Positions 5,802 to 63,802 of a stretch of 64,000 bases of DNA are shown here, in pieces; the first letter of the stretch is position 1, and each line of letters opens with the position of its first letter. Made by a program: the position numbers and the translations under genes. Under the pieces are notes generated by a model. It was not told the DNA's origin and searched no databases. It worked only from the letters and a program-made list of their open reading frames with translations. Origin of the DNA: Bacteroidia bacterium (GTDB taxonomy: Bacteria > Bacteroidota > Bacteroidia > J057 > JAIXKT01); the NCBI GenBank assembly GCA_026932145.1, contig JAIXKT010000044.1, positions 1 to 64,000 of the forward strand, in the 5' to 3' direction.

Positions 5802-5932
5802 CTGAAGTTTCTGCGATAAGGTAAAATAATAACATGAATTTATCATTTTTTGTATGACTTGCTTATTTTATTTTATTAATAGGCTGATTATCAAGAATAT
5901 ATTAAGCGATTTAGGAGTATAAAAAATCAAGT

Positions 5933-7440: not shown

Positions 7441-7473
7441 AATAGGTTGCGGTTAATAATCAATCTTGCAAAA

Positions 7474-7481
7474 CAAATATA
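7474..7481 (-). promoter_or_regulatory. Bacteroidota -7 box (TATATTTG) for the thioredoxin-like gene
   Basis: Reading the minus strand, TATATTTG matches the TAnnTTTG consensus exactly and sits 33 nt before the GTG start. No convincing -33 TTTG element is seen at the usual spacing. Confidence 0.4.
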
Positions 7482-7590
7482 ACCTTGATTTAGTTGTTTT
7501 CAGCGTCAGCATTTACGTTAAAAAAATAGCGCGGAATTTCTATTTAACACAAAATTAAAATTGATTTCTAATCATCTTATATCCAATAAG

Positions 7591-8412
7591 CTATCTTTGT
7601 TTTACTAACTTTTTTCGTTGTACATAAGCACTAATCAAGATGCTTACTTCATAAAGTCCCCACATAGGAACTCCGAGTAATATTTGGCTTAATGGGTCTG
7701 GCGGGGTCAAAATGCCGGCAACTATCAAAATGATAACAATTGCGTGGCGGCGATACTTTCTCATAAAAGCAGGTGTTAAAATCCCCAACCTTGATAAGAT
7801 GTATGAAACAAATGGCAGTTCAAATAAAATCCCTCCTGCAATGCTAATTTCGGTAATTAATGAAATCACGTCCCCAATTCGCCAGATATTTTGTACCTCA
7901 GGAGCTAATTTAAAAGAAGATAAAAATCGGACGGAAAAAGGTGTAATCACAAAATAGCCGAAAACAAAACCCGTGTTGAATAAGATAAAAACAGACCAGA
8001 ACGCCCAGCGGGCTAAACTTTTTTCGGAGCTACGCAAGCCAGGCTTCACAAAACGCCATACTTCCCACAAAATATACGGAGAGCCTACCACCAACCCGCC
8101 CATAAAAGCTAAAAAAAACGCCCGCGTAAATTGCTCATAAGGCTCCGTAGCCTGAAAAACAACATCTATTTTCTCAAAACATAAATCCTTATTAACCATA
8201 CAAAGCCAAGCATTTACCGGAAAATTTGGGCGAAAAGGAGCCAAAACAACTTCTGCTATAACCTGATCTAAATAGTTGAAAACCACTATCATCAATATTC
8301 CTACCACACACAGGCTTCGTACCAAATGCCACCTAAACGCCTCCAAATGGTCCAAAAAGGACATTTCTTGTTCAAGGTTATTCTTTGATTTTCTACTTTT
8401 AAACCGAAACAT
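7591..8412 (-). CDS. tatC: Sec-independent (Tat) translocase subunit TatC
   Basis: TatC is the membrane receptor for twin-arginine signal peptides. The 273-residue protein opens with the diagnostic F-L-D-H-L-E-A-F-R-W-H-L-V-R-S segment and has about six membrane spans. The Bacteroidota-type periplasmic loop between TM1 and TM2 is long. It is not adjacent to either tatA gene (28.2 and 58.8 kb), so the Tat system is scattered. A likely client is the molybdoenzyme catalytic subunit at 51.8 kb, which carries an R-R-K-F-L-K Tat motif. Confidence 0.95.
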   Translation of the reverse strand: MFRFKSRKSKNNLEQEMSFLDHLEAFRWHLVRSLCVVGILMIVVFNYLDQVIAEVVLAPFRPNFPVNAWLCMVNKDLCFEKIDVVFQATEPYEQFTRAFFLAFMGGLVVGSPYILWEVWRFVKPGLRSSEKSLARWAFWSVFILFNTGFVFGYFVITPFSVRFLSSFKLAPEVQNIWRIGDVISLITEISIAGGILFELPFVSYILSRLGILTPAFMRKYRRHAIVIILIVAGILTPPDPLSQILLGVPMWGLYEVSILISAYVQRKKLVKQR

Positions 8413-8551
8413 CTTATTTCTCGCAGCTAAACTACAAAGCCCTTGCTTATTTCGGTAAAAAAAACCAAAATATCCGAATATTTTTAAACCACCTGTTTAG
8501 CTGCCCTTTGAATGTTTGGGTAAAATTCAATGCTGAATTATAAAATTATTG

Positions 8552-8559
8552 TACCTTTG
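8552..8559 (+). promoter_or_regulatory. -7 box TACCTTTG immediately before the lipoprotein ATG
   Basis: This is an exact TAnnTTTG match. With transcription normally starting a few bases downstream, the mRNA would begin almost at the ATG at 8564. No clear -33 element is present. Confidence 0.4.
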
Positions 8560-8563
8560 TTTG

Positions 8564-9136
8564 ATGCTTCGGTTATTTCGGGTTCGTTGGTTGTTTTTTG
8601 TGGCTGCACTCAACTTAATATCCTGCGGGGAAGTAAGTTATATCATTAAAAACGAGGTTGTTACACTTTCTCCACAATGGTCAATAGTGGGTGACCACCT
8701 TAATCAAATAGATAGAACAATCGGTATTTTAGAATCAAGTATAACCTCAGTTAAAAATGAGTTGGCTCAAGCTGCCAGAGTAAACAACGAAGAACAAAAA
8801 GAACAAGCTCAACAGCGAGTAGCAGTTTTTGTTGAAAAATATCAAGGCCATACCCGAAAATTTAAGCAAACCTATCAGCGTTTACGTAAAACCTATACTA
8901 AGTATCGTACCGAATTTAACGAATGGGAAACCAATATCCTTAGTGATAACATTACTGATAATCAAGGAGCTACCGTAACGTTAAAACAATTTAAAAGAAA
9001 ATACAAAGATATTTTTAATGATACCAGCACAACCGAAATACAGCTAAATCAAGAAATTTTAGACTACAATACAAACATTCGCCAGTTAGCTGAATCTATG
9101 GGTGTTTATACCAGCTACGAAATAACCCTAAAATAA
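8564..9136 (+). CDS. Coiled-coil lipoprotein of unknown function
   Basis: Starting at the ATG at 8564, the protein of about 190 residues has a short positively charged N-terminus, a hydrophobic stretch and a clean lipobox L-I-S-C-G, so it should be a lipoprotein. The mature part is highly charged and rich in Gln, Glu and Lys, with heptad-like helices. An in-frame TTG at 8549 exists but adds nothing useful. A TACCTTTG -7 box at 8552-8559 lies only 4 nt before this ATG, which suggests a very short or absent leader. The next gene (bestrophin-like) follows after 7 nt, so the two form an operon. Confidence 0.8.
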   Translation: MLRLFRVRWLFFVAALNLISCGEVSYIIKNEVVTLSPQWSIVGDHLNQIDRTIGILESSITSVKNELAQAARVNNEEQKEQAQQRVAVFVEKYQGHTRKFKQTYQRLRKTYTKYRTEFNEWETNILSDNITDNQGATVTLKQFKRKYKDIFNDTSTTEIQLNQEILDYNTNIRQLAESMGVYTSYEITLK

Positions 9137-9143
9137 ACCCCGT

Positions 9144-9974
9144 ATGAATAGCAAAGTATATGTTGGGAAATTATACAGCAGCTTAATCAAAATCATTAAT
9201 TACAAGACAATTACCATTACTTTTTTGTCTTTGGGAGCTACCTACATTTGCCATCATTTTGGTTATACGGCAGACTTTCCGCAGGCGTTGATAGCCACAG
9301 CTATCGTTTTCCCGATTGTTTTTTCCATCAACTCTGCTTACCAACGGAGAGAAGCAGCCCTAAAAAGCCTTGCCCAAATAAAATCAGGCGGTTTATGTAT
9401 TTACTACGCTGCCCGAGATTGGGGAGACCCTAAGTTTGACCAGAATAACCCATTCCCAGAACGAGTAAAATCTTTATGTTTAGAACTTTTAATGGATATT
9501 GAACTCTTTTTCATCGCTCAAGAAGAAATTGATACCCAACGAGAACAAGTAGTTTATAGCCGATTTTCAGATTTTTCTAAATTGATTAGAGAGATGAGAA
9601 CCGTTGGTATTACACCAAGTGAAATATCCAGACTTAGCCAATATCTAAACAAAATGATAATGTGTTTTGAAGAAATGAAACTAATCATCAGCTACCCGAC
9701 TCCAATCACATTACGAGCTTATAGTAAAGTATTTATATTTTCTTTTCCGATAATTTACGGGCCTTTTTTTGCCCACACATTCAAAGACTATACCAATGGA
9801 TTAAGCTACGTTCTGCCAATTTTATACTCATTTGTTTTAGTTAGTTTAGATAATATTCAGGAACATTTAGAAAATCCTTACGACCAGTTAGGAGAAGACG
9901 ATATTCGAATAGAAGTAAAAGAATATATGAAACTATTTGTGGATCAGGAGAAATCGTGGGATATAAGCGCGTAG
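9144..9974 (+). CDS. Bestrophin-like (RFP-TM) membrane protein
   Basis: The 276-residue protein has hydrophobic segments at about 25-65 and 195-235. The C-terminal half has the bestrophin signature: an I-S-Y-P-T-P-I-T-L-R-A-Y segment before the third span, and L-D-N-I-Q-E-H-L-E-N-P-Y-D-Q just after the last span. Bestrophin relatives in bacteria are pentameric anion or cation channels. It is co-directional with and 7 nt from the lipoprotein gene. Family assignment is by motif reading only; ion selectivity cannot be given. Confidence 0.65.
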   Translation: MNSKVYVGKLYSSLIKIINYKTITITFLSLGATYICHHFGYTADFPQALIATAIVFPIVFSINSAYQRREAALKSLAQIKSGGLCIYYAARDWGDPKFDQNNPFPERVKSLCLELLMDIELFFIAQEEIDTQREQVVYSRFSDFSKLIREMRTVGITPSEISRLSQYLNKMIMCFEEMKLIISYPTPITLRAYSKVFIFSFPIIYGPFFAHTFKDYTNGLSYVLPILYSFVLVSLDNIQEHLENPYDQLGEDDIRIEVKEYMKLFVDQEKSWDISA

Positions 9975-9988
9975 TTAAGTAGCATCCT

Positions 9989-12616
9989 ATGCGAGGTTCT
10001 GATAAAAACAAGGCAGAAACTCCTTTGATGCGCCAGCATCGGGAAATAAAGACAAAATATCCGGGAGCTATTTTGCTCTTTCGGGTAGGTGATTTTTATG
10101 AAACTTTTGGAGAAGATGCTATCATTACTGCACAGGTTTTGGGAATTACGCTAACCAAACGCTCTAACGGAGCAGCAGCCGACCAAGAATTAGCCGGATT
10201 TCCGTATCATTCGTTAGATACTTATTTACCAAAATTGGTTCGAGCAGGGCATAGAGTTGCTGTCGTTGACCAATTAGAAGACCCGAAACAAGCCAAAGGA
10301 ATTGTTAAACGCGGCGTTACCGAATTAGTAACGCCCGGAATCGCTTTGAATGATAAAATATTAGAAACCAAGCGCTACAATTATCTAATGGCAATACTTT
10401 TTAGCCATAGCACTACCTCTGCCGCATTTATAGAACTTTCTACTGGAGATTTTTTTTGCTTTTCAGGAAAACCAACGGATATTCAAAAAGTTACTTATGC
10501 TTTACAGCCAACTGAAATTATCGTAGGCCGTACTGATTATCCCAAATTGATAGAACTTTTGGGTAAAGATTATCATATTTTTCGCCTTGAAGACTGGCCT
10601 TTTCAGTATGATACTGCATACAAAATTTTAACCCACCATTTTAGAACTGCTTCTTTAAAAGGTTTTGGCGTTCAGGAAGAAGAATACGGAATCCGAGCTG
10701 CCGGCGCACTCTTGCATTATCTGCATGAAAACGAACAAAAAAATCTTTCCCATATCCATAAGATTTACGTACTCCCGCAGCATGATTTTATGATGATGGA
10801 TAAATTTACCTTACGAAATTTAGAAATCATTGAACCCATTCATCCCGAAGGTAAATCATTAGCTGATGCCTTAGATTGCACTTTAACACCAATGGGCGCA
10901 CGGTTACTGCGCCGGTGGCTCGTATTTCCGCTATCCGACTTGCAACAAATTCAATATCGGCAAAATACCGTAGAAACTTTCATTATTCAGCAGCCTAAGC
11001 TGGCGGAATTAGCCAGTTTCTTGAAAAATATCGGAGACTTAGAACGAACAACGGCACGGTTAGCAGCCCGTAAAATATCCCCCAGAGAAGCTACCCAACT
11101 CCGAAATGCCCTCCATTACTTTTTTCCACTATTTGAATTATTGCAGCAAGTTGCCCCGCAAACAACTCAAACACTAATTCCCGTTATACCTGATATTCAA
11201 GAGGCAGTTACATTGCTCAAAAAAACGTTGCTTCCAGAATGCCCCGTGCAAACAAATGCCGGAAATATTATCCAAGATGGTATATCTGATAAATTAGATG
11301 AATATCGAAACATCCGCCTACACGCTCAAGCGATTCTATCAGATATTCAAGAACGAGAAATAACAAAAACCGGAATTTCCACCCTAAAAATATCCTTCAA
11401 CAATGTTTTTGGCTACTATATCGAAATCACCAATGCCCATAAGCACAAAGTTCCGCCGGATTATATCCGAAAACAAACCCTAACAAACGCAGAACGCTAC
11501 ATAACTCCGGAACTCAAGCAATTAGAGGAAAAAATATTACACGCCGAAGATCGTATGGTTCAATTAGAATCTGAACTGTATCAAGAACTAATCGAAAAGC
11601 TATTGGCGTGGGTTACGTCTATTTCGGCAGCGGCTAAAGCCGCTGCCGAAATAGACGTATTGCGTTGCTTCGCTTGGAATGCAATTAAGTTACAGTATTG
11701 CAAACCGGAGTTTCATGAAAACCCTACACTTGAAATTATAGAAGGCCGTCATCCTGTAATTGAGATATTGCTCCCACGAGATAAACCATTTATACCAAAC
11801 GATATTTATTTATCTCCTGATAATCAACAGATTTTGCTGATAACCGGCCCGAATATGTCTGGTAAGTCTGTTATTTTACGGCAAACGGCGTTGATTGTTT
11901 TGCTGGCTCAGTCGGGTAGTTTTGTGCCGGCTACCCAAGTGCGCTTAGGAATTGTGGATAGGCTCTTTACACGTGTAGGTGCGAGCGATAACGTTTCTGC
12001 CGGCGAAAGCACATTCATGGTAGAAATGAATGAAACAGCACAAATTGTGCACCAAGCAACCCCCAGAAGCCTCGTCCTGCTCGATGAAATCGGGCGCGGA
12101 ACCAGCACCTATGACGGAATCTCAATTGCATGGGCATTGGTAGAATACCTGCATAACGAACCCAGCATTTCTGCAAAAACCTTATTCGCAACGCATTATC
12201 ATGAATTAGCAGCCTTAGATGACCAACTCCCCCGCGTTCAAAACTATCACGTTCAGGTACAAGAAACCCAAGAAGAAATTATTTTCCTGCGAAAAATAGT
12301 ACCCGGAAATAGTGAACACAGTTTTGGTATCCATGTTGCAGAGCTCGCCGGAATCCCCAAACCGATTACCCAACGCGCCCATGAAATCTTAAAATGGCTT
12401 GAAAGCCAAAGAGATAATAGACCAGCCGAAAACCAAAACCTGCCTACTATCAAAAAAACAAAAATTCAACAGCCGCTACAGCTTCAGCTATTTGCCTTAG
12501 CTGACGAACAAGCATTTAAAGTACGAAAAGAAATTGAAGAAATTGATATTGAAAGACTTACTCCCATAGAAGCCCTCTTGAAATTGCAATATTTAAAACG
12601 TCTTTTAGAACACTAA
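9989..12616 (+). CDS. mutS: DNA mismatch repair ATPase MutS
   Basis: MutS recognises mismatches and starts mismatch repair. The mismatch-reading motif G-D-F-Y-E-T-F is at residues 34-40 (Phe36 and Glu38, as in classical MutS). The ATPase domain has Walker A G-P-N-M-S-G-K-S at about 618, L-V-L-L-D-E-I-G-R-G-T-S-T-Y-D (Walker B and signature) and A-T-H-Y-H-E-L. The 875 residues are full length. Its stop overlaps the convergent gene at 12613 by 4 nt. Confidence 0.98.
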   Translation: MRGSDKNKAETPLMRQHREIKTKYPGAILLFRVGDFYETFGEDAIITAQVLGITLTKRSNGAAADQELAGFPYHSLDTYLPKLVRAGHRVAVVDQLEDPKQAKGIVKRGVTELVTPGIALNDKILETKRYNYLMAILFSHSTTSAAFIELSTGDFFCFSGKPTDIQKVTYALQPTEIIVGRTDYPKLIELLGKDYHIFRLEDWPFQYDTAYKILTHHFRTASLKGFGVQEEEYGIRAAGALLHYLHENEQKNLSHIHKIYVLPQHDFMMMDKFTLRNLEIIEPIHPEGKSLADALDCTLTPMGARLLRRWLVFPLSDLQQIQYRQNTVETFIIQQPKLAELASFLKNIGDLERTTARLAARKISPREATQLRNALHYFFPLFELLQQVAPQTTQTLIPVIPDIQEAVTLLKKTLLPECPVQTNAGNIIQDGISDKLDEYRNIRLHAQAILSDIQEREITKTGISTLKISFNNVFGYYIEITNAHKHKVPPDYIRKQTLTNAERYITPELKQLEEKILHAEDRMVQLESELYQELIEKLLAWVTSISAAAKAAAEIDVLRCFAWNAIKLQYCKPEFHENPTLEIIEGRHPVIEILLPRDKPFIPNDIYLSPDNQQILLITGPNMSGKSVILRQTALIVLLAQSGSFVPATQVRLGIVDRLFTRVGASDNVSAGESTFMVEMNETAQIVHQATPRSLVLLDEIGRGTSTYDGISIAWALVEYLHNEPSISAKTLFATHYHELAALDDQLPRVQNYHVQVQETQEEIIFLRKIVPGNSEHSFGIHVAELAGIPKPITQRAHEILKWLESQRDNRPAENQNLPTIKKTKIQQPLQLQLFALADEQAFKVRKEIEEIDIERLTPIEALLKLQYLKRLLEH

Positions 12617-51800: not shown

Positions 51801-54800
51801 ATGGGAATCAATAGAAGAAAATTTTTAAAAAACGGGCTACTAACGAGTTTGGGAACGGCTGCTTTTGCCAGCCTTCCATTTGAGGGTTTTAACAAAATAT
51901 TTACATTTTTTGACCCAATAGATGTAGAGAACCCGTTAGCTAAGTACCCGAATCGGGATTGGGAAAAGACCTACCGAGATATGTGGCAGTATGATGAGGA
52001 GTTTACTTTCTTATGTGCGCCAAATGACACCCACAACTGCTTGCTAAAAGCTCATGTAAAAAATGGTGCCGTAGTCAGGATAGCCCCGAGTTATGCTTTC
52101 TCAAATGCCAAAGACTTACAAGGGAATCAAGCCACAGCCCGTTGGGAGCCCAGATGCTGCCAAAAGGGGTTAGCTCTTGCCAGACGCTTTTACGGAGACC
52201 GCCGAGCAAAATATCCCGTAATCCGCGAAGGCTACCTAAAGTGGATACAAAAAGGAATGCCCAGAAATGCTGATGGCACAATTTCACAAGAATATCTCCA
52301 AAGAGGAAAAGAAGCCTTCGTTAAATTAACGTGGGAAGATACTTTCAAATACACCGCTGCGGTGTTAAATAACATCGCCCGCACCTACAACGGAGAAGAA
52401 GGAAAGAAAAAACTAACTGCACAAGGCTACGATCCCTTGATGGTAGAAGCTACCGAAGGGCACGGAACACAAGTGTTAAAGTTTCGGGGCGGAATGGCAC
52501 CCTTAGGTGTAACCCGTATCTTCGGGATAAACCGTTTAGCAAACTCATTAGCACTTTTGGATGCCAAGATTAACAATATCGATCCGGAACACGCACACGG
52601 CGCACGCTGCTGGGATAGTTATGCTTGGCATACTGACTTACCTCCCGGACACCCAATGGTAACCGGTGCCCAAACCGTTGACTTTGACTTAGCTTGTGTG
52701 GATCACTCTGACCATATCGTTGTTTGGGGCATGAATTGGATAACTACCAAAATGCCTGATGCTCACTGGCTTACAGAAGCTCGTATGAAAGGTGCCAAAG
52801 TTACTGTAATCGCTTGCGAATATAGTGCTACTGCCAACAAAGCAGATAACCTTATCGTATGCCGCCCGGGAGTTACACCAGCATTAGCACTCGGGTTCGC
52901 TCACGTAATCATCCGCGACAAATTGTATGACGCAGACTTCATGAAGAAATTTACCGACTTACCATTCCTAATCAGAATGGATAACCAAAAAATCCTGAAG
53001 CCTACCGACATCATCAAAAAATACCAGAAACCGGGATTAAAAAATTACATCGAAGTCCTAAAAGCCGGTGAAAAAAACAAACCCTCTCTAAAACAAGGAA
53101 TACCTTTCGTAAGCGAAGAATTAGCAAATGAATGGGGAGACTATGTAGTGTGGGATGAAACCAAAAATGCACCAACTGTCGTTACCCGAGACGATTACGG
53201 CAAATTTATGTACGACAAAGGCGTGAACCCAGCCCTCGAAGGTAAATTTAAAGTTAAAATAATAGGGGAAAAGAAAGAAGTAGAAGTTCGCACAGTCTTT
53301 GACCTGATGAAAGAATACATCATGGACAACTTTGACCCCAAAACCGTAGAAGAACTTACTTGGGCACCCATACAAGGTATCGAAACAGTAGCCAAAGAAA
53401 TAGCTAAAAACAAAGGCAAAACGATATTTGCTACCGGAATGGGACCTAATCAATTCTTTAATAATGACTTAAAAGACAGAGCTGTACTATTTTTAGCAAG
53501 CATTACCTCAAATATAGGTAAAATAGGTGGAAATGTCGGTTCTTTTGCCGGAAATTATCGTGGAGCTTACTTTTCTGGATTAGCTTGCTACATCGCAGAA
53601 GACCCATTCAATCCGGAGTTGGATACCACCAAAGCACCCAAAGTAAAAAAATATTTCCATTACGAATCAGCTCACTTCTTTAACAATGGAGATAGAATTT
53701 TACGGATGGGGAATAAAAACATGACGGGAAAAACCCACATGCCCGCACCTACCAAATCTATTATGGTTTCCAATGGAAACTCTCTCTTAGGAAACTCAAA
53801 AGGGCATTATGATAACGTAATAAACGTTTATCCCCGAATTGATTTTATCGGTGTATCAGAATGGTGGTGGACAGGCTCTTGTGAATATGCAGATATTGTA
53901 TTTGCCGTTGATTCTTGGGCAGAGTTTAAGTTTCCGGATATGACTATTTCTGTTACAAATCCGTTCTTATACACATTTCCCAGAACTCCACTCAAAAGAA
54001 TTTTTGATACTCGAGGCGATATAGAAGTCTTAGCCGGAATCGCATCCGCTTTTGGAGACCTGACCGGAGATAATAGATTTAAAGATTATTTCAAGTTTGT
54101 TCATGAAAATAAGCCGGAAGTGTATTTACAACGGATATTAGATACCAGCCAAGGCATGACCGGCTATAAATTTGAAGAAATTGAAGCACTTGCCAAAAAA
54201 GGAATCCCCTCATTGGTGATGACACGCACCACCCCAAAATATGTGGGAATGGAGCAAGTAGAAGAAAATAAACAATGGTACACCAAATCCGGCAGGATGG
54301 AATTTTACCGCGATGAACCGGAATTTATCGAAGCCGGCGAAAACATGATAGTATTCCGCGAACCCATTGACTCTACTTTTTTTGAACCAAACGTCATTGT
54401 TTCCAAAAAACATCCTTGCATTATGCCCGATACTCCTCAAAAGTACGGCGTAGATACCAATAATTTAACAACAGATGTGCGTCAAGCAAGGAATGTAGTG
54501 AAACCGTGGAGTGAGGTTAAAAACACTAAGCATCCGCTCCAAAACGCAGATAAGGACTTTAAATTTATTTTCCATACACCTAAATTTAGACATGGTGTGC
54601 ATACAATGCCGGTAGATACCGATATTATCGCAGTTTGGTTCGGCCCATTTGGAGATATGCACCGCCAAGATAAGCGGAAACCGTATGTTACTGAGTTATA
54701 TGTGGACATTAACCCATTGGATGCCAAAGAGTTAGGTGTAGAAGACGGAGATTATGTTTGGATAGATGCAGATCCTTCGGATAGGCCATTTCGAGGCTGG

Positions 54801-55283
54801 CAGCAGAAAAAAGATAGCCCTGAATATGAGCTATCCCGCTTAAAAGCTCGTGCCCGCTACTACCCCGGAACCCCAAGAGGCATTACCAGAATGTGGCATA
54901 ACGCATACGGATCAACCTACGGCTCTGTAAAAGGTGCTAAAGAAAACGAAAGCGGTATTGCCAAAAACCCAAAAACCCATTATCAATCTCTTTTCCGTAG
55001 CGGCTCCCACCAAAGTTGTACCCGTGCTTGGCTCAAACCTACACTCTTAACGGATTCTCTCGTTCGTAAAAATAACTTTGGGCAAGGAATCGGTAAAGGC
55101 TTTGAAATTGACGTTCACGGTGCTACCGGAAACCCACGCGAATCTTTTGTAAAAATAACCTTAGCTGAAAGAGGCGGATTAAACGCAGAAGGACTATGGG
55201 AAGGCGCAACCGAAGGAATGAGACCTACCTATGAAGATAACGACTTTAAAAATTACCTCAAAGGCGGATTCGTGAAAAAATAA
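51801..55283 (+). CDS. Tat-exported type II molybdopterin oxidoreductase, NXR/NarG-like catalytic subunit
   Basis: The 1160-residue protein should carry Mo-bis-MGD plus one Fe-S cluster. The Tat signal is R-R-K-F-L-K at residues 5-10, so it acts in the periplasm. The FS0 site reads C72-x3-D76-x3-C80, with C119/C120 downstream; the middle position, Cys in NarG, is Asp. The expected Mo-ligand Asp is Asp279 in [26 protein letters not shown] follows. Length (about 1150) and these segments fit the nitrite oxidoreductase/periplasmic nitrate reductase branch better than selenate, chlorate or perchlorate reductases (about 900). The substrate could be nitrite, nitrate or another oxyanion. It heads the operon and is 34 nt from the beta gene. 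Confidence 0.85.
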
Positions 55284-55317: not shown

Positions 55318-56445
55318 ATGGCAACAGTTAATAATTGGCAGCTTAAACGAGAAATGGAGTATCCATACGAAGAAGCTAAGCCTAAAAAACAAATTACATA
55401 TATTTTTGATACAAATAAATGTATCGCCTGTCAAACTTGCACCGTAGCTTGTAAAACCACTTGGACTTCAGGGCGCGGTGAAGAAACAATGTTCTTTAAC
55501 AATGTTGAAACGAAACCTTACGGAAGCTATCCGCGTAAATGGGACGTTAAAACTTTGAAACTCACAGAGCAGCAATGGGATAATGCAGGCGTTTTTAAAG
55601 GTAATACCATCTTTGAAAACACTGCTCCCGGAGAACGTGTACACGGCTTTCGCCCAGATGAAAGGAGTTACGCTTACCCAAACATCGGAGAAGATGAAGT
55701 TATCGGAACAATGGAAAAGGGCGCGTTCTTCAATGGTGTACATAATGTCTGGATGTTCTATTTAGCCAGAATTTGTAATCATTGCTCGTACCCTGCTTGT
55801 TTAGCAGCTTGCCCCAGAAAAGCTATCTACAAACGCGAAGAAGACGGGATTGTGCTGATAGACCAATCTCGTTGCAGAGGCTACAAAGAATGTGTTAAGG
55901 CTTGCCCATACAAAAAAACATTTTTTAATATGGTAACTCGTGTATCAGAAAAGTGTATTGGATGCTATCCCTTGATAGAAAAAGGTGAGCAGCCACGCTG
56001 CGTAACTACTTGTATCGGCAAAATCAGATTACAAGGATTTATGGAGGACGCTAAGGAACCCAGAAAAGATAATCCGATAGATATGATTGTGCGGATAAAA
56101 AAAGTAGCTTTGCCGTTGTATCCACAATTTGGGACCCAACCCAATGTTTATTACATCCCACCGGTTCATGTACCCAAAGATTTTCTATTTCAGATGTTTG
56201 GCCCGGGTGTAGAAAAAGCTGTAGAAACATATCGTAACATGAAAGATGATAAAGAACTTTTAGCAGCGTTCTTACTGTTTGGAAACAGTAGCAAAATCAC
56301 TCACTCTTACAAAGCAGAAGCCAATCATGCCGTAGGTTACGACGCTGCCGGAAATGAAATCATTAGAGTTCCTTATACAGAACCTGTATTCACACGCCCG
56401 CACTGGGATGAAAGTTTACAAACATTCCGCCATAACAATCCGTAA
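55318..56445 (+). CDS. Four-cluster Fe-S electron-transfer (beta) subunit, NxrB/NarH-like
   Basis: The 375-residue subunit passes electrons between the catalytic and haem subunits. Cluster ligands are C35-C38-C41-C45, C153-C156-C161-C165, C186-(Y189)-C192-C196 and C213-C216-C228-C232. Tyr189 replaces the fourth Cys, in the place where NarH has Trp, predicting three [4Fe-4S] and one [3Fe-4S] cluster. It has no signal peptide and is presumably carried across with the Tat substrate as a folded heterodimer. C-R-G-Y-K-E-C-V-K-A-C-P-Y-K-K is typical of type II beta subunits. Confidence 0.9.
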   Translation: MATVNNWQLKREMEYPYEEAKPKKQITYIFDTNKCIACQTCTVACKTTWTSGRGEETMFFNNVETKPYGSYPRKWDVKTLKLTEQQWDNAGVFKGNTIFENTAPGERVHGFRPDERSYAYPNIGEDEVIGTMEKGAFFNGVHNVWMFYLARICNHCSYPACLAACPRKAIYKREEDGIVLIDQSRCRGYKECVKACPYKKTFFNMVTRVSEKCIGCYPLIEKGEQPRCVTTCIGKIRLQGFMEDAKEPRKDNPIDMIVRIKKVALPLYPQFGTQPNVYYIPPVHVPKDFLFQMFGPGVEKAVETYRNMKDDKELLAAFLLFGNSSKITHSYKAEANHAVGYDAAGNEIIRVPYTEPVFTRPHWDESLQTFRHNNP

Positions 56446-56490: not shown

Positions 56491-56871
56491 ATGAAAAAAA
56501 TCATTCTAATCAGCACAATATTATGTATGGGTTCACTCTACGTTACTGCTCAAAATGCAGCCCAAGGAGAAAAAGCCTTTAAGTCAATTTGTGCAGCCTG
56601 CCATAGTGTAGGAAAAGGTAAAGTAGTTGGGCCAGATTTATCCGGCGTAACAGATAGAAGAACAGAAACTTGGCTGTTGAGTTTCATTAAATCATCACAA
56701 ACAATGGTAAAAAAAGGAGACCCCGTTGCTGTGAAACTATTTAATGATTACAATAAAATTCAGATGCCAGACCAAAATATGACCGATCCACAGATTAAAG
56801 ATATTTTGGCTTACGTCAAGAGTTTATCACCCAAAACCACAGCACCTGCAAGTGCTCCCCCCAAAAAGTAA
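56491..56871 (+). CDS. Periplasmic monohaem cytochrome c
   Basis: The 126-residue protein has a signal peptide ending V-T-A-Q, a haem c site C34-A-A-C37-H38 and a likely axial Met92 in K-I-Q-M-P-D-Q-N. It is class I cytochrome c. It is about three-quarters identical by eye to the N-terminal domain of the next gene product. It probably shuttles electrons between the molybdoenzyme and the respiratory chain. Confidence 0.93.
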   Translation: MKKIILISTILCMGSLYVTAQNAAQGEKAFKSICAACHSVGKGKVVGPDLSGVTDRRTETWLLSFIKSSQTMVKKGDPVAVKLFNDYNKIQMPDQNMTDPQIKDILAYVKSLSPKTTAPASAPPKK

Positions 56872-56902
56872 CCTGCTTTAAATAACTTTTAATATATTCA
56901 AA

Positions 56903-58165
56903 ATGAAGAAGTTCATTGTAATAGCTATGCTAATTGGGTTTGTTATGCCTAAGCTAACAGCTCAAAATGCAGCAAAAGGAGAAAATACATTCAAAGGGAT
57001 TTGCGGTGCTTGCCACACAGTTGGAAAAGGTAAACTGGTTGGCCCGGATTTGTCCGGCGTAAATGAACGCAGAACACAAACTTGGTTGTTGAGTTTTATC
57101 AAATCATCACAATCTATGGTAAAAAAAGGAGACCCTATTGCCGTAAAATTGTTTAATGAGTTTAATAAAATCCCGATGCCAGACCAGAATTTGACGGATG
57201 TACAGATTAAAGATGTATTAGCTTACATTGGAAGTTTATCTCCCAAGAGTGCTGCTCCTTCAAAAACAACCACAACTCCCGCTACAACAACAACTACACC
57301 CCAAGCCTCTGCCGGAAACCCACCTAACTGGGTAAAAGCAGATAACGAAGTTAAGTGCGTAAAAAGTACCAAACAAATTGACCCTAAGTCAGTAGCAAAT
57401 GATCCTGTTTGGAATAAGACAACTTGGAAGAAATTAGCACTGTCTCCCCAAAACGTAGTTTATCCTAACTTACCGAAGCAATCTGTAGATGGAATTTCCG
57501 TCAAGAGTGCCTACTTCGGAAAAGAAGTGTATTTCTTAATTGAATGGGCTGATGCTACCAAAAACACAGAAGTTGATGCGGATAAGTTTTGCGACCAGTT
57601 AGCAATTCAATTGCCTTTGGACCCCGGAAACATTCCCAGTTATATGATGGGCAATGCCGGCGGCCGCGTTCACATAGTTCATTGGAAATCCGTTTGGCAA
57701 AATGACGTAGAAAAAGGTTTTCAAGACGTTACCCAAAAATACCCAAATATGTGGGTTGATGTTTATCCCGGTATGGAATACTATCCTGACAAAAACCAAA
57801 TGAACTATGCTAAAAATATCACCGCAGAGCAAATGGTTGATGCCGGAAAAACAAACACAATGCCCGGTACATATTCCAAAAACCCAATGTCCCAAATCAA
57901 ACGGACATCTACCGTAGAAGAAGCATCCGCAGAAGGATTCGGTACAATGGCTACCCAGCAAAACCAGCAAGCAAAAGGCTGGGCAGTTTGGCAAGATGGA
58001 AAATGGACAGCCTGCATCGCAGTGCCCGTTAATACAGACGATAAAAACAAAGCCAAAGTAAAAACAAAAACCAAAGTAGCATTCGCTATTTGGGACGGAG
58101 GAAACGAAAATATCGGAGGACGCAAGCACTTTATGCCTTGGGTGGACTTAACCTTAGAACCTTAA
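56903..58165 (+). CDS. Cytochrome c fused to ethylbenzene-dehydrogenase-type haem-b domain (gamma subunit)
   Basis: The 420-residue protein has a signal peptide (ending L-T-A-Q), a class I cytochrome c domain (C34-G-A-C37-H38, Met92) and a Thr/Pro linker (about 120-140). The rest (about 145-420) resembles the haem-b-binding gamma domain of ethylbenzene dehydrogenase and relatives: N-D-P-V-W-N-K-T, then S-A-Y-F-G-K-E-V-Y-F-L-I-E-W-A-D, and A-F-A-I-W-D-G-G. Fusion of both haem domains in one chain would take electrons from the beta subunit straight to a c-haem. No membrane NarI-type subunit is present. Confidence 0.88.
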   Translation: MKKFIVIAMLIGFVMPKLTAQNAAKGENTFKGICGACHTVGKGKLVGPDLSGVNERRTQTWLLSFIKSSQSMVKKGDPIAVKLFNEFNKIPMPDQNLTDVQIKDVLAYIGSLSPKSAAPSKTTTTPATTTTTPQASAGNPPNWVKADNEVKCVKSTKQIDPKSVANDPVWNKTTWKKLALSPQNVVYPNLPKQSVDGISVKSAYFGKEVYFLIEWADATKNTEVDADKFCDQLAIQLPLDPGNIPSYMMGNAGGRVHIVHWKSVWQNDVEKGFQDVTQKYPNMWVDVYPGMEYYPDKNQMNYAKNITAEQMVDAGKTNTMPGTYSKNPMSQIKRTSTVEEASAEGFGTMATQQNQQAKGWAVWQDGKWTACIAVPVNTDDKNKAKVKTKTKVAFAIWDGGNENIGGRKHFMPWVDLTLEP

Positions 58166-58176
58166 CCTCAATAATA

Positions 58177-58791
58177 ATGAAATCAACCCCAGCCTTGAAT
58201 ATTGATTTGCTGAATGCCGACATATATCGGCTTATCGCAAATTGCTTTGACTTTCCAAATCAAGATAGGTTGTTCGCAATTAAGGAAATGGCCGGAGGAC
58301 TTTGTAAATCTGGCCATCCTAACCCAGAAATTGCTAATATACTCACTACTTTGTGCCAATCTATTAATGACGAGGAAATCCTGTATGACTATTCCCTAAT
58401 CTTTATCAAAGGGGGCGTTCCGTTGAGCGAAACCCATACTTTACAAAGATACAACAGCGTAACAGATGTAAATGCGTTTTATTATGCTTTTGGTTTTCAG
58501 CCCAAAACCGGCGAGAACCCGGATTCTATCATGTATGAATTGGAGTTCTTGGCAATGCTACTCCTAAAAGCAGTTATTGCACCCAACGAAGAAGCCCAAA
58601 ACATTACCCAAAAGGCATATCAAGACTTTTTGATTGAGCATACCGCAGAGTTTGCCATATCTTTAGCCCAAAAAATTCGCGAAGGGAACGCAGGTACTTT
58701 CTTCTTCACAGTTTCATTCTTATTGGAAACATTTATCCGCTATGAACTTGAACGCAATCATCTAACCATAAATCATTGCGATACCCCATGA
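58177..58791 (+). CDS. TorD/NarJ-like molybdoenzyme maturation chaperone
   Basis: Starting at the ATG at 58177 (M-K-S-T-P-A-L), the protein of about 204 residues is all-helical. It has Y-R-L-I-A-N-C-F-D-F-P near the start and Y-D-Y-S-L-I-F-I-K-G and E-L-E-F-L-A-M-L segments typical of the TorD/DmsD/NarJ family. Such chaperones hold the apo-catalytic subunit until Mo-cofactor and Tat export. The upstream start at 58090 lies inside the gamma gene and is rejected. It overlaps tatA by ATGA. Confidence 0.85.
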   Translation: MKSTPALNIDLLNADIYRLIANCFDFPNQDRLFAIKEMAGGLCKSGHPNPEIANILTTLCQSINDEEILYDYSLIFIKGGVPLSETHTLQRYNSVTDVNAFYYAFGFQPKTGENPDSIMYELEFLAMLLLKAVIAPNEEAQNITQKAYQDFLIEHTAEFAISLAQKIREGNAGTFFFTVSFLLETFIRYELERNHLTINHCDTP

Positions 58792-58982: not shown

Positions 58983-59963
58983 ATGCTGTACGATAATTTC
59001 AACAGAATTCATAACTACTTACGTATTTCAATTACAGATAAATGTAATTTTAGATGTAGTTATTGTATGCCGGAGGAGTGTTATACTTTCACCCCGTCCG
59101 AAAGACTTATGAATGCTGCTGAAATAGAATCAATTGCCCGTGAGTTCGTTTCATTGGGAATCAATAAATTACGTTTAACAGGCGGTGAACCGCTGCTCCG
59201 AAAGGATTTTGCAGACATTCTAACCCGCCTATCAAAACTGAATATTGAACTACTGATAACAACTAACGGGCTGCTTTTAAACCAATACATAGACACAATC
59301 AAAGCAGCAAAAGTTTCTACCATTAACGTAAGTTTAGATTCCCTAAATCCGGAAACCTTTTTTCAGATTACCAAAAGAAACGCTTTTAAGCAAGTTTGGG
59401 ATAATATTATGCTTTTGCTGCAAGAGGGAATCCGAGTAAAAATCAATGTAGTAGCTATCAAAGAGTTCATAACCAAAGAAATCTTTGATTTTCTCGAATT
59501 AACAAAAAACTTACCGCTTCATATTCGTTTTATTGAGTTTATGCCTTTTGCCGGAAATAACTGGACAAGTGATGACGTAGTTACTGCCGCTCAACTATTA
59601 AAATTGGTTTCAGAAAAGCATAATATCGTTAAACTCATCGATGAACCTCACGCCACTGCCAGAAAATATAAAGTAGTGGGATACGAAGGAACGTTTGCTT
59701 TCATCACCACGATGACCAATCAATTTTGTGGAGACTGTAATCGTGTAAGATTAACGGCAGACGGTAAACTCAAAAACTGCTTATTTAGCAGAGAAGAAAC
59801 TGACCTACTAACTCCATTTAGAAAGAACGAGCCAATTGTTCCACTGATTGTAGAAACAGTAAAACGGAAATATCCCGCTTTGGGCGGGCAATTCCAGCCA
59901 GATTACCAAACCATTCAGCCCCAAGTGCTAATCAATAGAAGTATGATTGGCATTGGTGGTTAA
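58983..59963 (+). CDS. moaA: GTP 3',8-cyclase (MoaA)
   Basis: MoaA is the radical-SAM enzyme that begins molybdopterin synthesis from GTP. The 326-residue protein has the SAM cluster C21-N-F-R-C25-S-Y-C28. A second, C-terminal cluster is in F-C-G-D-C-N-R-V-R-L-T followed by L-K-N-C-L-F-S, and the protein ends in the functional Gly-Gly. It starts 3 nt after tatA. Confidence 0.97.
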   Translation: MLYDNFNRIHNYLRISITDKCNFRCSYCMPEECYTFTPSERLMNAAEIESIAREFVSLGINKLRLTGGEPLLRKDFADILTRLSKLNIELLITTNGLLLNQYIDTIKAAKVSTINVSLDSLNPETFFQITKRNAFKQVWDNIMLLLQEGIRVKINVVAIKEFITKEIFDFLELTKNLPLHIRFIEFMPFAGNNWTSDDVVTAAQLLKLVSEKHNIVKLIDEPHATARKYKVVGYEGTFAFITTMTNQFCGDCNRVRLTADGKLKNCLFSREETDLLTPFRKNEPIVPLIVETVKRKYPALGGQFQPDYQTIQPQVLINRSMIGIGG

Positions 59964-59977
59964 TTACTTAAAAAATC

Positions 59978-61153
59978 ATGGTTTCCGTTCATGAAGCAAA
60001 GCAAATCATTGATACACAAATCATTCTCAAACGAGCGGTTTACGAACTAAGTTCTGATTTAGTTGGAATGGTATTAGCCGGAGATATTACAGCACAATGT
60101 AATGTTCCGTCTTTTGATAATTCTGCAATGGACGGATACGCCTTTTGCTTCCAAAAAGACAAAGCAAGTTATCAAATAACGCAAAAAATCAAGGCTGGTG
60201 AAGTATCCGAAAATCCTATTGGTTTAGATGAGGCAGCAAGAATCTACACCGGTGCACCAATTCCTATGGGCACAGATACCGTTATTCAGCAGGAAATTGT
60301 ATCTATTCAGGAAGGCAGAATTTCTTTTGACCCACAACGAATCCGTTATGGTGCAAACGTCCGTTTACAAGGTAGCCAATGCAGACAAGGGGATATTGTG
60401 GCCAAAGCCGGAAGTTTGATAACTCCGGGAATGATAGGCTTAATGGCATCCGTTGGAGCAACGCACATTCCGGCATATATCCCGCCCAAAATCAGCATTA
60501 TCACCACTGGCGATGAATTGATAACCCTAAAAGATCCCTTAACTTACGGAAAAATTTACAATTCTAACAGCGTAGCCCTACAAGCATATTGTAAACAATT
60601 AAACATTCAGATACAATCAGTTAGGCACATTCCAGACGACCCTGATATTACGTTGGAACATATAACAGACTGTTTAGCATCCTGTGATATGTTAATTTTA
60701 ACAGGTGGTATTTCGGTGGGGGATTATGACTATATTCGTTCAAGTTTGAATCTTGCCGGAGTTACCCAGCGATTTTATAAAGTTAAGCAGAAGCCCGGTA
60801 AACCGCTATTTTTTGGCCATAAAGATAATACGTTGGTTTTTGCTTTGCCCGGAAACCCGGCTGCGGTATTAGCTTGTTTTAACCAATACATAAAGCCATG
60901 TATTCGTAAAATGATGGGTTTTTCGGCTGTTTGGGAGCCAGACGCAGTTCTTCCACTTCAAAATACCTACCAAAAACATACCGGTTTAACCCACTTTGCA
61001 AAAGCATATACAAACCAATCTTTGGTTAGAATTTTAAGTGGCCAGCAGTCTTTTGATTTATTACCCTTTAACGAGTCCAATTGTTTCGCAGAAATTCCGG
61101 AAGATATTGCTGAGGCCGAGCCAAACTCGTTATTATCTATTTATTACTGGTAA
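59978..61153 (+). CDS. moeA: Molybdopterin molybdenumtransferase MoeA
   Basis: MoeA inserts molybdate into adenylated molybdopterin. The 391-residue protein has D-N-S-A-M-D-G-Y-A, T-G-A-P-I-P-M-G-T-D, I-I-T-T-G-D-E-L and L-T-G-G-I-S-V-G-D-Y-D-Y, plus L-P-G-N-P-A-A-V. MogA/MoaB, which adenylates molybdopterin first, is not in the window. Confidence 0.96.
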   Translation: MVSVHEAKQIIDTQIILKRAVYELSSDLVGMVLAGDITAQCNVPSFDNSAMDGYAFCFQKDKASYQITQKIKAGEVSENPIGLDEAARIYTGAPIPMGTDTVIQQEIVSIQEGRISFDPQRIRYGANVRLQGSQCRQGDIVAKAGSLITPGMIGLMASVGATHIPAYIPPKISIITTGDELITLKDPLTYGKIYNSNSVALQAYCKQLNIQIQSVRHIPDDPDITLEHITDCLASCDMLILTGGISVGDYDYIRSSLNLAGVTQRFYKVKQKPGKPLFFGHKDNTLVFALPGNPAAVLACFNQYIKPCIRKMMGFSAVWEPDAVLPLQNTYQKHTGLTHFAKAYTNQSLVRILSGQQSFDLLPFNESNCFAEIPEDIAEAEPNSLLSIYYW

Positions 61154-61154
61154 A

Positions 61155-61889
61155 ATGATTGATAATCAAACTCTCTTGATATTATTACTTGCGATTACTG
61201 CCTTTTTATATGCTTCGGTTGGGCATGGCGGCGCGAGTACATATATAGCATTATTAACTTTGTTTCATATTTCACCTATAGAAATCCGCCCAACTGCGTT
61301 GATTTTAAACATACTCATTTCATTTATATCTTTTTTGATGTATCGAAAGGTTTGTAAATTCCCAACACGGCTATTTTGGATTTTAATAATTGCTTCGGTT
61401 CCGGCTTCATTTTTAGGGGGAAAGTTACTGATAGACACATCTTTGTATCGTAAAATATTGGGCATCATTTTACTATTTCCGGTAGCCCGCTTTTTGGGGA
61501 TAATACCGACATCAGACAAACAAATTATAGAGCCAAAAGTAGGCTTAGTATTGTTGATTGGTTTAGTAATAGGATTTGTTTCCGGATTAATTGGTATTGG
61601 CGGCGGAATTTTACTTTCCCCAATTGTGTTGTTATTGGGTTGGGTGAATATGAAAGAAGCTGCTGCATTAAGTGCATTGTTTATTTTTTTTAATTCAATA
61701 GCCGGTTTAGCCGGTTCAAGTTTAACATCTTCCATACCAAGTGAATACGTGCTGTGGTACTTACCATTTACATTGGCAGGAGGCTTAGCCGGCGCTTATG
61801 TGGGCGCACAACGATATAACCTAAGAACATTAAAATACGTTTTGACCACAGTGCTCCTGATTGCAGCGGTTAAACTGATTGGGATATGA
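61155..61889 (+). CDS. TSUP (TauE/SafE) family permease
   Basis: Starting at the ATG at 61155, the 244-residue protein has about eight spans and the paired family motifs V-G-H-G-G-A-S-T-Y and I-G-I-G-G-G-I-L-L. TSUP proteins move sulfite, sulfonates or other organosulfur anions. It lies 1 nt after moeA and overlaps mobA by ATGA, so it belongs to the cofactor operon. Its cargo here is unknown; a link to molybdate or to sulfur for molybdopterin is speculative. An upstream frame from 61038 lies inside moeA and is rejected. Confidence 0.85.
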   Translation: MIDNQTLLILLLAITAFLYASVGHGGASTYIALLTLFHISPIEIRPTALILNILISFISFLMYRKVCKFPTRLFWILIIASVPASFLGGKLLIDTSLYRKILGIILLFPVARFLGIIPTSDKQIIEPKVGLVLLIGLVIGFVSGLIGIGGGILLSPIVLLLGWVNMKEAAALSALFIFFNSIAGLAGSSLTSSIPSEYVLWYLPFTLAGGLAGAYVGAQRYNLRTLKYVLTTVLLIAAVKLIGI

Positions 61890-62473
61890 AACAAGACTTC
61901 TTAGAAATCGTTATTTTAGCCGGAGGCAAAAGTAGCCGTATGGGGCAAGACAAGGGCTTAATGCTTTTTCATCAAAAACCTATGATAGAATGGATTTTAG
62001 AAGCCTCACTGAAAACCAATTACCCTGTCCGAATAATTGCCAATAACCCTGCTTACAGCCAGTTTGGAGTTCCTGTGATTTCGGATATTATTCCAGAAAA
62101 AGGCCCAATGGGGGGACTTTTCACGGCACTAACAACCACAAAATCTAAGTATGTTTTTTTACTAAGTTGTGATACACCCTTGATTAAAAACGAGATACTT
62201 CAATACATGATTTCTAAACTAACTACCCAAGAAGTATTGGTAGCTTCTTTGCAAGGCAAAATACTGCCATTATTAGCTATATATCATTCTGATTTAAAGA
62301 AAGTTGTTTTAGAAAATATTTCTTCAAATAAATTAAAGATGCAAGAGCTCATTAGGTCATTGGTTTATCAAGAGTTAGAAATACCAAACTTTTTGGCACC
62401 ACAACCGGAGGTATTTGCAAACATCAACACAATAGACGAATTTGCCGAATTACAAAAAGGAGTAGTTTTATGA
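61886..62473 (+). CDS. mobA: Molybdenum cofactor guanylyltransferase MobA
   Basis: MobA attaches GMP to Mo-molybdopterin to form the MGD used by the DMSO-reductase family. The 195-residue protein has L-A-G-G-K-S-S-R-M-G-Q-D-K-G-L and later L-L-S-C-D-T-P-L, with the expected length. Its presence fits the bis-MGD enzyme encoded upstream. It overlaps both neighbours by 4 nt. Confidence 0.95.
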   Translation: MKQDFLEIVILAGGKSSRMGQDKGLMLFHQKPMIEWILEASLKTNYPVRIIANNPAYSQFGVPVISDIIPEKGPMGGLFTALTTTKSKYVFLLSCDTPLIKNEILQYMISKLTTQEVLVASLQGKILPLLAIYHSDLKKVVLENISSNKLKMQELIRSLVYQELEIPNFLAPQPEVFANINTIDEFAELQKGVVL

Positions 62474-62700
62474 TAAAAGTATTGGCATTTGGGATAGTTG
62501 CAGAAAAAATTCAGTCTAATGAGTTTTATTTAGAAAACATTGCTAACACACAGGAACTAAGGTCTGTTTTGTTAGAGAAATTTCCCAAACTGGGGGATAT
62601 TCGGTTTACATTTTCTATCAATAGAAAGCTGGTGCATGAACTCACTGCAATAGAACCTAATAGCGAAATTGGGCTATTGCCGCCATTTTCAGGAGGCTAA
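62470..62700 (+). CDS. moaD: Molybdopterin synthase sulfur carrier subunit MoaD
   Basis: The 76-residue ubiquitin-like protein ends P-P-F-S-G-G; the terminal Gly-Gly is thiocarboxylated to deliver sulfur to precursor Z. It starts inside the mobA stop and lies 1 nt before the activating enzyme gene. Confidence 0.93.
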   Translation: MIKVLAFGIVAEKIQSNEFYLENIANTQELRSVLLEKFPKLGDIRFTFSINRKLVHELTAIEPNSEIGLLPPFSGG

Positions 62701-62701
62701 T

Positions 62702-63802
62702 ATGAGCAGATTTGAACGCCAAGTTATTTTACCCGGCTTTGGAACAGCAGCACAAAATAGGCTGAAAAAATCAAAGATATTAGTAGTAGGAGCCGGCGGC
62801 TTAGGTGCTCCGCTTTTGTTATACTTAGCAGCAGCCGGTATTGGAGAAATAACCATAATAGACGGAGACACGGTTTCAGAATCCAACTTAAACCGCCAAA
62901 TATTGTATGGATACCCGGAAATAGGAAAATCCAAAGCAACATCTACAGCAGCCTATCTTCAACAAAAATATCCAGACATCGGTATTAAAGCTATAGAAGC
63001 ATTTATCACAACCCAAAATGCGGTTTCAATCCTCTCTGACCATGATTTGGTCATTGACGGAACAGACAATTTCTCAACACGTTATCTACTAAGCGACGGT
63101 TGTTATTTATTGCAGAAGCCGTTAGTTTCAGGTTCGATTTATAAATTTGAGGGACAAGTAATCGTTTTAGATGCTCAAAAATCCCAAACTCGCCCCTTAA
63201 CATATCGAGATTTGTATCCCCGCCCGCCGGCTCCCGAAGAAGTTCCCAATTGCAGCGAAATAGGTGTCTTGGGAGTATTACCCGGAATTATCGGAACAAT
63301 AATGGCCTCCGAAGCTATCAAGTTAATATCGAATTATGCTCCGGCAATAGCAAATAAAGTACTGTTTTACAACCTATTACAAAATAGTTTTTACGAAACA
63401 AGCATATTAGAGAACCCCGAAGCATTAGCGGATGCACCACAAACAATCAAAGATTTTGAGCAAATGAATTATGCAACCCTTTGCGGGCTATCCCGCACCA
63501 TTTCTTGGCATGAAGTGCTGCAAACAATCACTCAAAAGACAAAAAATATTTTGATAGTAGATGTTAGAAATTCTGATGAACTCCCTAAACCCCACAAAAT
63601 CAACTACCTAAATATTCCACTAACGGAATTAGAATGCCGAAAAGAAGAAGTTTCGGCAGCAGAAACGATCTATGTATTTTGTCAGGCCGGAGTTAGAAGC
63701 CAAAAAGCGGCTCAATTTCTTGAAAGAACTTATCCTAACAAAAAAGTTTTTTCTATTGAAGGCGGAATCAATCAATTACAATCAACTTTGCACGTTTTTT
63801 AA
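62702..63802 (+). CDS. moeB: MoeB/ThiF-type adenylyltransferase fused to a rhodanese domain
   Basis: From the ATG at 62702 the protein is 366 residues. The E1-like domain has V-G-A-G-G-L-G-A-P, then D-x-V-x-x-S-N-L-N-R-Q and D-G-T-D-N-F. A C-terminal rhodanese domain (about 270-366) has the active Cys in F-C-Q-A-G-V-R-S. It should adenylate MoaD and load sulfur on it, much like eukaryotic MOCS3. The typical zinc Cys pairs of MoeB are not evident. A ThiS-directed role is possible but the neighbours favour MoaD. Confidence 0.9.
   Translation: MSRFERQVILPGFGTAAQNRLKKSKILVVGAGGLGAPLLLYLAAAGIGEITIIDGDTVSESNLNRQILYGYPEIGKSKATSTAAYLQQKYPDIGIKAIEAFITTQNAVSILSDHDLVIDGTDNFSTRYLLSDGCYLLQKPLVSGSIYKFEGQVIVLDAQKSQTRPLTYRDLYPRPPAPEEVPNCSEIGVLGVLPGIIGTIMASEAIKLISNYAPAIANKVLFYNLLQNSFYETSILENPEALADAPQTIKDFEQMNYATLCGLSRTISWHEVLQTITQKTKNILIVDVRNSDELPKPHKINYLNIPLTELECRKEEVSAAETIYVFCQAGVRSQKAAQFLERTYPNKKVFSIEGGINQLQSTLHVF

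Follow-up and report, generated by a model that had tools for sequence, protein, structure and literature searches.

In periplasmic NXR-type enzymes, the partner of the haem b held by the gamma subunit is still only proposed (PMC8387239, PMC3578206). The window analysed here, a stretch of 64,000 nucleotides of DNA from a Bacteroidia bacterium (contig JAIXKT010000044.1), contains an operon of this type in which a cytochrome c is encoded twice, once as a gene of its own and once as the N-terminal part of gamma. This arrangement raises the question of what a haem c joined to the enzyme would do, how the two copies arose, and which way electrons would pass through them. We think it fairly likely, taking all of the evidence below together, that gamma took in an operon cytochrome c as a tethered relay, with the solo cytochrome as a free carrier, in an enzyme that reduces nitrate.

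The operon and its fused gamma subunit

The genes from alpha to the chaperone (Table 1), with intergenic gaps of 45, 31 and 11 bases, are in keeping with a single operon. The best PDB match of alpha is NXR-A of Kuenenia (7b04_B, 845 bits). Alpha contains Y-4x-D-11x-QT at residue 274 and an FS0 motif of the Asp form (C72-N75-D76-C80 with a Cys pair at 119-120), and its Mo and FS0 motifs agree with the Kuenenia residues. The aspartate Mo ligand and the presence of the FS0 ligands in alpha are those of the type II DMSO reductase family. The NCBIfam type II models are the best or near-best matches for their four subunits, with scores that all lie under the cut-offs (alpha, 298 of 985 bits; beta, 281 of 481, or 280.8 against a curated 480.7 for the iron-sulfur subunit model; gamma, 113 of 170; chaperone, 59 of 152, at 8e-16). 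We take these models to represent the EbDH/Ser/Clr side of the family, and for that reason the wider type II placement is retained. The Tat signal on alpha and the non-membrane EB_dh gamma correspond to the periplasmic NXR/NAR clade, and gamma is of the EB_dh type without a membrane helix instead of the membrane type (NarI) of NarGHI. No 19-residue stretch of gamma after residue 60 exceeds a hydropathy of 0.68, which speaks against a membrane-anchored gamma. The same scan found no membrane helix in the solo cytochrome beyond residue 60, the maximal values for the two cytochrome-bearing proteins being 0.31 and 0.68. On these sequence features, the locus is predicted to encode a soluble, periplasmic molybdoenzyme of the NXR/NAR type with an alpha-beta-gamma composition.

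Table 1. Features of the molybdoenzyme locus, with positions counted from the first base of the window.
Feature	Position	Strand	Description
Alpha (NxrA/NarG-like)	51801..55283	+	1160 aa; Tat-type signal RRKFLK; molybdenum active site
Beta (NxrB-like), iron-sulfur protein	55318..56445	+	375 aa; Fer4 domains (Pfam)
Solo cytochrome c	56491..56871	+	126 aa; N-terminal hydrophobic leader; short Pro/Ala-rich C-terminal stub; Cytochrom_C 3.2e-13 (Pfam)
Gamma, cytochrome c domain and leader	56903..57250	+	About residues 1-116; CXXCH at 34, Met92
Gamma, Thr/Ala/Pro-rich linker	57251..57325	+	About residues 117-141; from the sequence and pLDDT <50 in a low-confidence model
Gamma, EB_dh (haem b) domain	57326..58165	+	EB_dh 2.3e-26 at residues 167-408 (Pfam)
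TorD/NarJ-like chaperone	58177..58791	+	ATG at 58177, listed ORF opens at 58090; Nitrate_red_del 7.2e-8
Downstream cofactor block	58983..63802	+	MoaA-like at 58983-59963 (MoaA domains, Pfam), then further ORFs

The other ORFs of the downstream block presumably encode MoeA-like, TauE-like permease, MobA-like and MoeB-like proteins, an assignment made by reading the sequence. MoaA-, MoeA-, TauE- and MobA-like ORFs also accompany the patchily distributed operon in many relatives. A transfer of the operon together with its cofactor block is suggested.

The duplication itself had been read from the sequence by eye, with about 77% identity over 99 residues. Both of the ORFs on which the original prediction rested (126 and 420 aa) were found, the second of them (56903-58165) beginning with a cytochrome c that is joined through a Thr/Pro-rich linker to an EB_dh domain. 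BLASTP aligned the solo cytochrome with residues 1-120 of gamma without gaps (84 of 120 identical, 70%, E 3e-60), so that an objection from low identity falls away, and without the signal peptide the identity is 77/97 (79%), close to the estimate. Each protein contains a single CXXCH (residues 34-38), a Met92 and an N-terminal leader, as expected for class I c-type cytochromes and as had been noted for the haem site and the methionine; by its position, Met92 would be the distal haem ligand in both copies. The N-terminal part of gamma is also matched by the Pfam Cytochrom_C model (8.9e-10), and its best PDB matches are 2l4d, a cytochrome domain, and 6btm_A, which is the A subunit of alternative complex III. 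The Pro/Ala-rich stub that ends the solo protein is similar to the beginning of the gamma linker.

The C-terminal part of gamma has Kuenenia NXR-C as its best PDB match (2e-22), with 73 of the 229 aligned residues identical in the printed alignment. Met155 and Lys305, described as the haem-b ligands of NXR-C (PMC8387239), align with Met249 and Lys408 of gamma. As both ligands are kept, an EB_dh domain devoid of haem ligands, which would have spoken against the proposal of a gamma with two haems, is ruled out, and gamma has putative sites for one b and one c haem, as had been proposed. Gamma could be modelled only with low confidence (mean pLDDT 61.6, 16 sequences, with the linker at 117-141 below 50). 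The fold of this low-confidence model matches the gamma chains of 7b04 (1e-14) and 2ivf_C (1.8e-10); its eight PDB matches at E <= 0.001 comprise three gamma subunits and five carbohydrate-binding proteins of similar beta fold, and the cytochrome 2l4d matches at 0.008. The fused gamma is the only EB_dh match in its own genome, which speaks against a second gamma elsewhere.

Distribution and history of the fusion

An EB_dh domain preceded by a cytochrome c is not confined to the window, as a search of other genomes recovered the fused gamma in G042 and G474 as well. Fifteen operons of this kind were compared, a count that includes the window and in which five duplicates were merged (G042 = L047, G527 = L048, G472 = L049, G597 = L052 and G286 = L051). 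Gamma is fused in three of them (the window, G042 and G474), a separate cytochrome c is encoded nearby in seven, and none was seen in five. Six of the separate genes lie upstream of alpha (L048, L049, L050, L052, L054 and G465), and that of G455 lies downstream on the opposite strand. A related cytochrome c gene is absent from the stretch examined in G286 and L055, where the operon is in view, and none was seen in L053, G467 and G523, where the contig breaks off within alpha. The window alone among the 15 operons has a cytochrome gene between beta and gamma, and it alone combines fused and solo copies; the other two fused gammas occur with no solo gene in the operon. As to the labels of these records, L055 is labelled Nitrospirae, and L051 (JAGFIZ010000051.1), titled Bradyrhizobiaceae, is a contig of G286, a genome placed in the phylum of the window, so that its public label looks wrong.

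A hydrophobic helix at the C-terminus (hydropathy 2.18-3.02) is present in five of the seven separate cytochromes but not in those of L050 and G465. In these five (L048, L049, L052, L054 and L083, the locus of G455) the cytochrome c has a long linker of its own that precedes the membrane helix. A similar linker runs into the EB_dh domain in the fused gammas, as though a membrane tether had been swapped for an enzyme tether.

Wider searches returned few further relatives. With the whole of gamma as query against 60 near genomes, a full-length match beyond its own was obtained only in G042, the remaining matches being mostly to the cytochrome domain. The EB_dh domain matched in 10 of 395 genomes across the phylum, as a whole domain only in the genome of the window and in G286. 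It matched in 12 of 395 genomes of the class, in 11 of them over most of its length; ten of the 11 belong to the window's kind and G046 (29%) to another. An alignment-based scan of named genomes gave 9 loci. Viral contigs gave 13 pattern matches and no relative, and among plasmids 12 records matched; of the 10 listed, none covered more than 80% of the query and most covered the cytochrome part only.

In a tree of NxrA, the fused operons are monophyletic (100/99), and their sister is G286 (100/99); one outgroup row, G046, is on a very long branch, and omission of G046 and G474 yields the same order. As read from these gene arrangements, a cytochrome of the kind that is encoded separately in relatives was joined to gamma. 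The cytochrome tree, of 41 rows and with many weak forks, places the two copies of the window as sisters (100/88) within a clade that contains the domains of G042 and G474 (93/91). Third codon positions are alike at 59/97 sites of the two copies (59/95 in the comparison with relatives), against 37/95 between the fused copy and G042 (p 0.002) and 43/93 between the fused copy and G474 (p 0.04), a pattern that gene conversion could also produce; a whole-codon comparison with G474 was not significant (p 0.10). At shared residues 49 of 72 codons are identical, compared to 29.7 expected from codon usage, and the pair is therefore lineage-specific. The estimates for the pair are dN 0.12 and dS about 1.08 (NG86; YN00 gave no value), and the resulting dN/dS of about 0.11 points to purifying selection. 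Thus, the “recent domain duplication” that had been proposed holds as a real and lineage-specific event, but not as a very young one, which the silent-site divergence rules out.

The order of events implied by the original prediction, in which one copy of a tandem pair became fused to gamma, is probably reversed, because the fused gamma occurs without a solo gene in G042 and G474 and the solo cytochrome falls inside the fused clade. We consider it quite likely that the solo gene arose later, by a partial copying of the fused gene that took in the leader, the haem domain and a stub of the linker. We read this partial copying as having followed the split from G042, or else the pair as having been kept alike by gene conversion. 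The opposite order, with an older solo gene that gave rise to the fused domain and was later lost in G042 and G474, seems unlikely to us. It would agree with the occurrence of separate cytochromes in relatives, and the AU test does not reject a tree in which the three fused domains are held together with the solo outside (p-AU 0.163), or one in which the fused domain of the window is held with that of G042 alone in a smaller set (p-AU 0.195). However, the two copies are sisters inside the fused clade, they share more third positions with each other than the fused copy shares with either relative, and the separate genes of relatives lie before alpha or downstream, never between beta and gamma. 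As to which cytochrome was first fused to gamma, a single clade of the operon cytochromes was neither supported nor rejected in the smaller set (p-AU 0.342).

Direction of the reaction

The genome that contains the window encodes NirK (347 bits, cut-off 296), NosZ (932 bits, cut-off 625) and a qNOR (3ayf match, 7e-159), the last on a 5.4-kb contig of a bin with 3.01% contamination. NrfA was not found in the genome, which speaks against nitrite reduction of the NrfA type. The three PF00384 proteins of the genome are this alpha, the B subunit of complex III and a NuoG-like protein, with no other nitrate-type molybdoenzyme among them. Alternative complex III is represented by its A (6btm_A, 7e-94) and B (6btm_B, 4e-213) subunits. 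With NirK, qNOR and NosZ all encoded, and this alpha the only molybdoenzyme of nitrate type found, we favour nitrate reduction over nitrite oxidation and regard it as the likely direction. The rest of the denitrification chain is complete, and this enzyme is the only one found that could carry out its nitrate step. It had been suggested that electrons could leave the complex. This presumes nitrite oxidation, and in a denitrifier-like genome their entry through the c haem is more likely. Among the 12 genomes searched for NirK (11 with this operon type, and G046), only one exceeds the cut-off, with G474 just below it (295.0 vs 296.3), and the denitrifier setting is therefore not general.

Two further proteins of the genome deserve mention. 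One (L058, G000:C3:39503-40729), of 447 aa, belongs to the oxidase/NO reductase superfamily and gives only weak matches to solved cNOR and oxidase chains, the best at 4e-12. The other is a cytochrome c ORF (L004, G000:C16:10797-11057) located just upstream of nosZ (C16:11213) and distantly related, with 36% identity, to the domain of the window.

Operation as a nitrite oxidase, with electrons passing from nitrite via Mo, the Fe-S clusters, haem b, the fused haem c and the solo cytochrome to cytochrome c oxidase, is an unlikely alternative for which several points can nevertheless be made. The nearest solved enzyme is a nitrite oxidoreductase, the Mo and FS0 motifs are shared with Kuenenia, a cytochrome c oxidase subunit I is encoded in the genome (574.5 bits, under the curated 670.75), and a high-potential cytochrome c is named as a requirement for nitrite oxidation by this group of enzymes (PMC6050957). 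Against it stand the NirK, qNOR and NosZ of the genome and the lack of a second nitrate-type molybdoenzyme among the proteins found, as well as RuBisCO, the sole carbon-fixation marker looked for, which was not found in the genome. The sequence of alpha also argues against it, being 39.8% identical to the NOB/anammox-like alpha of G046 and matching Kuenenia NXR-A at 845 bits, compared to 1732 bits for G046. These scores suggest that alpha lies outside the Nitrospira/Nitrospina/anammox clade of known nitrite oxidisers. A distance of this order (about 40%) is given for Nitrotoga and the Hydrogenobaculum enzyme (PMC8387239), and their group is described as including several nitrate reducers (PMC6050957).

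The G046 locus (L086, G046:C42:269000-282000, at 5387-12276), located on a 318-kb contig of a genome in the class Bacteroidia, contains an NXR near the anammox type. Before it lies a gamma that combines two c haem sites with an EB_dh domain and is the only EB_dh protein found in that genome. The locus may belong to a nitrite-oxidising member of the Bacteroidota, or its contig may have been misbinned.

Periplasmic NXR-type enzymes are described as reversible (PMC8387239, PMC6050957), and a further study states the direction of nxr-like enzymes in its non-NOB genomes as unknown (PMC9306079). A tethered haem-c arm and a free twin might then let one reversible complex of a Bacteroidota denitrifier switch between the two directions, taking electrons from the quinol pool when nitrate is respired or passing those of nitrite to an oxidase, but we regard this as distinctly improbable.

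A proposed tethered haem c and its free twin

For a nitrate reductase, the following relay can be proposed. We infer from the conserved motifs that haem would be attached to both cytochrome copies. The c haem of gamma, on a flexible tether of about 25 residues, would be able to dock near the Met/Lys haem b of the same subunit and to pass electrons between haem b and the periplasmic cytochrome pool, and the solo cytochrome would move freely, carrying electrons between gamma and the chain in the membrane. The net flow would run from quinol through alternative complex III and cytochrome c to the gamma haem c and haem b, and from there through the Fe-S clusters to Mo, where nitrate would be reduced to nitrite in the first step of denitrification. 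For EbDH, whose haem b is bound by the same Met/Lys pair, a haem potential of +256 mV and a cytochrome c as probable acceptor are reported (PMC8840923), and the haem b of Kuenenia lies behind a surface groove at which a partner is proposed to dock (PMC8387239). By the gene-fusion argument, a cytochrome that is separate in seven and fused in three of the 15 operons is probably a partner of gamma; the lack of a related gene in the stretches of G286 and L055 speaks against a general partnership.

A tethered relay is thus the best reading of the c haem, which would not replace an outside partner. That the fusion makes a separate acceptor dispensable, as had been proposed, does not follow, since a c haem on a tether still depends on some partner beyond the complex; the operon itself encodes a free twin of the domain. 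A redox-idle or structural cytochrome domain, kept as a remnant or an assembly aid while the solo protein alone serves haem b, is a highly doubtful reading: Kuenenia NXR and EbDH do work with haem b and an outside partner, and the linker looks disordered in the low-confidence model, but CXXCH and Met92 are kept in both copies of the window at a dN/dS of about 0.11, and a domain with CXXCH is retained in all three fused operons.

Among solved enzymes, NXR-ABC of Kuenenia stuttgartiensis (7b04; PMC8387239) has in common with the window an alpha, a beta and an EB_dh gamma, the Mo and FS0 ligands, a Met/Lys haem b and the lack of a membrane anchor. NXR-C is described as carrying haem b only, in an enzyme that forms part of tubules, whereas the gamma of the window has an added c domain and a solo cytochrome gene adjoining. 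EbdABC (2ivf; PMC8840923) is likewise soluble and periplasmic, with a Met/Lys haem b in gamma and a cytochrome c as probable partner, but it acts on another substrate and its gamma has no c haem. The unfused Bacteroidota operons (L048, L049 and L052, for example) share with the window alpha, beta, an EB_dh gamma, TorD, a MoaA-like gene and a cytochrome c of the same family, and differ in that gamma is unfused and the cytochrome gene separate, in five of seven cases with a C-terminal membrane helix of its own.

The closest precedent for the fusion is alt_NxrC of Nitrospina gracilis and Nitrospira moscoviensis (PMC3578206, PMC6606698), in which c site(s) and a haem-b EB_dh-like domain occur together, as in the window, where one CXXCH and an EB_dh domain are found on the same protein. 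Some of the Nitrospina proteins are predicted to be soluble, like the gamma of the window. The alt_NxrC proteins are described as alternative or extra gammas with one to three c sites (1-3 in Nitrospina, PMC3578206; two in Nitrospira alt_NxrC_2, PMC6606698), several of them with membrane helices. In contrast, the gamma of the window has one c haem of another cytochrome subfamily, is the only gamma of its genome and lies inside the alpha-beta operon. By sequence, the cytochrome domain of the window does not belong with the di-haem c proteins of the alt_NxrC type and groups with single-haem Bacteroidota cytochromes. The di-haem proteins of Bacteroidota themselves contain two CXXCH and match the EB_dh query weakly (eight weak matches in the phylum); the two CXXCH precede an EB_dh-like end in all five loci examined (L036, L037, L040, L041 and L043).

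A haem c and a haem b on one gamma-like protein are therefore already published. Distinct here are the single c haem of another subfamily, its place on the only gamma of the genome, the separate cytochrome of relatives and the free twin. No report of a fused cytochrome c-EB_dh gamma in Bacteroidota was found in the openly licensed PMC literature, searched mostly as titles and the beginnings of abstracts. A cytochrome c that is separate in relatives and covalently joined here is genetic evidence for the partner of gamma, and the fused gamma could be used as it stands to test the haem b-haem c step. The operon adds a candidate route of nitrate reduction in Bacteroidota that searches by marker genes could miss or call nitrite oxidation. 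As a modest variation on a known enzyme, it points to which carrier the enzyme uses.
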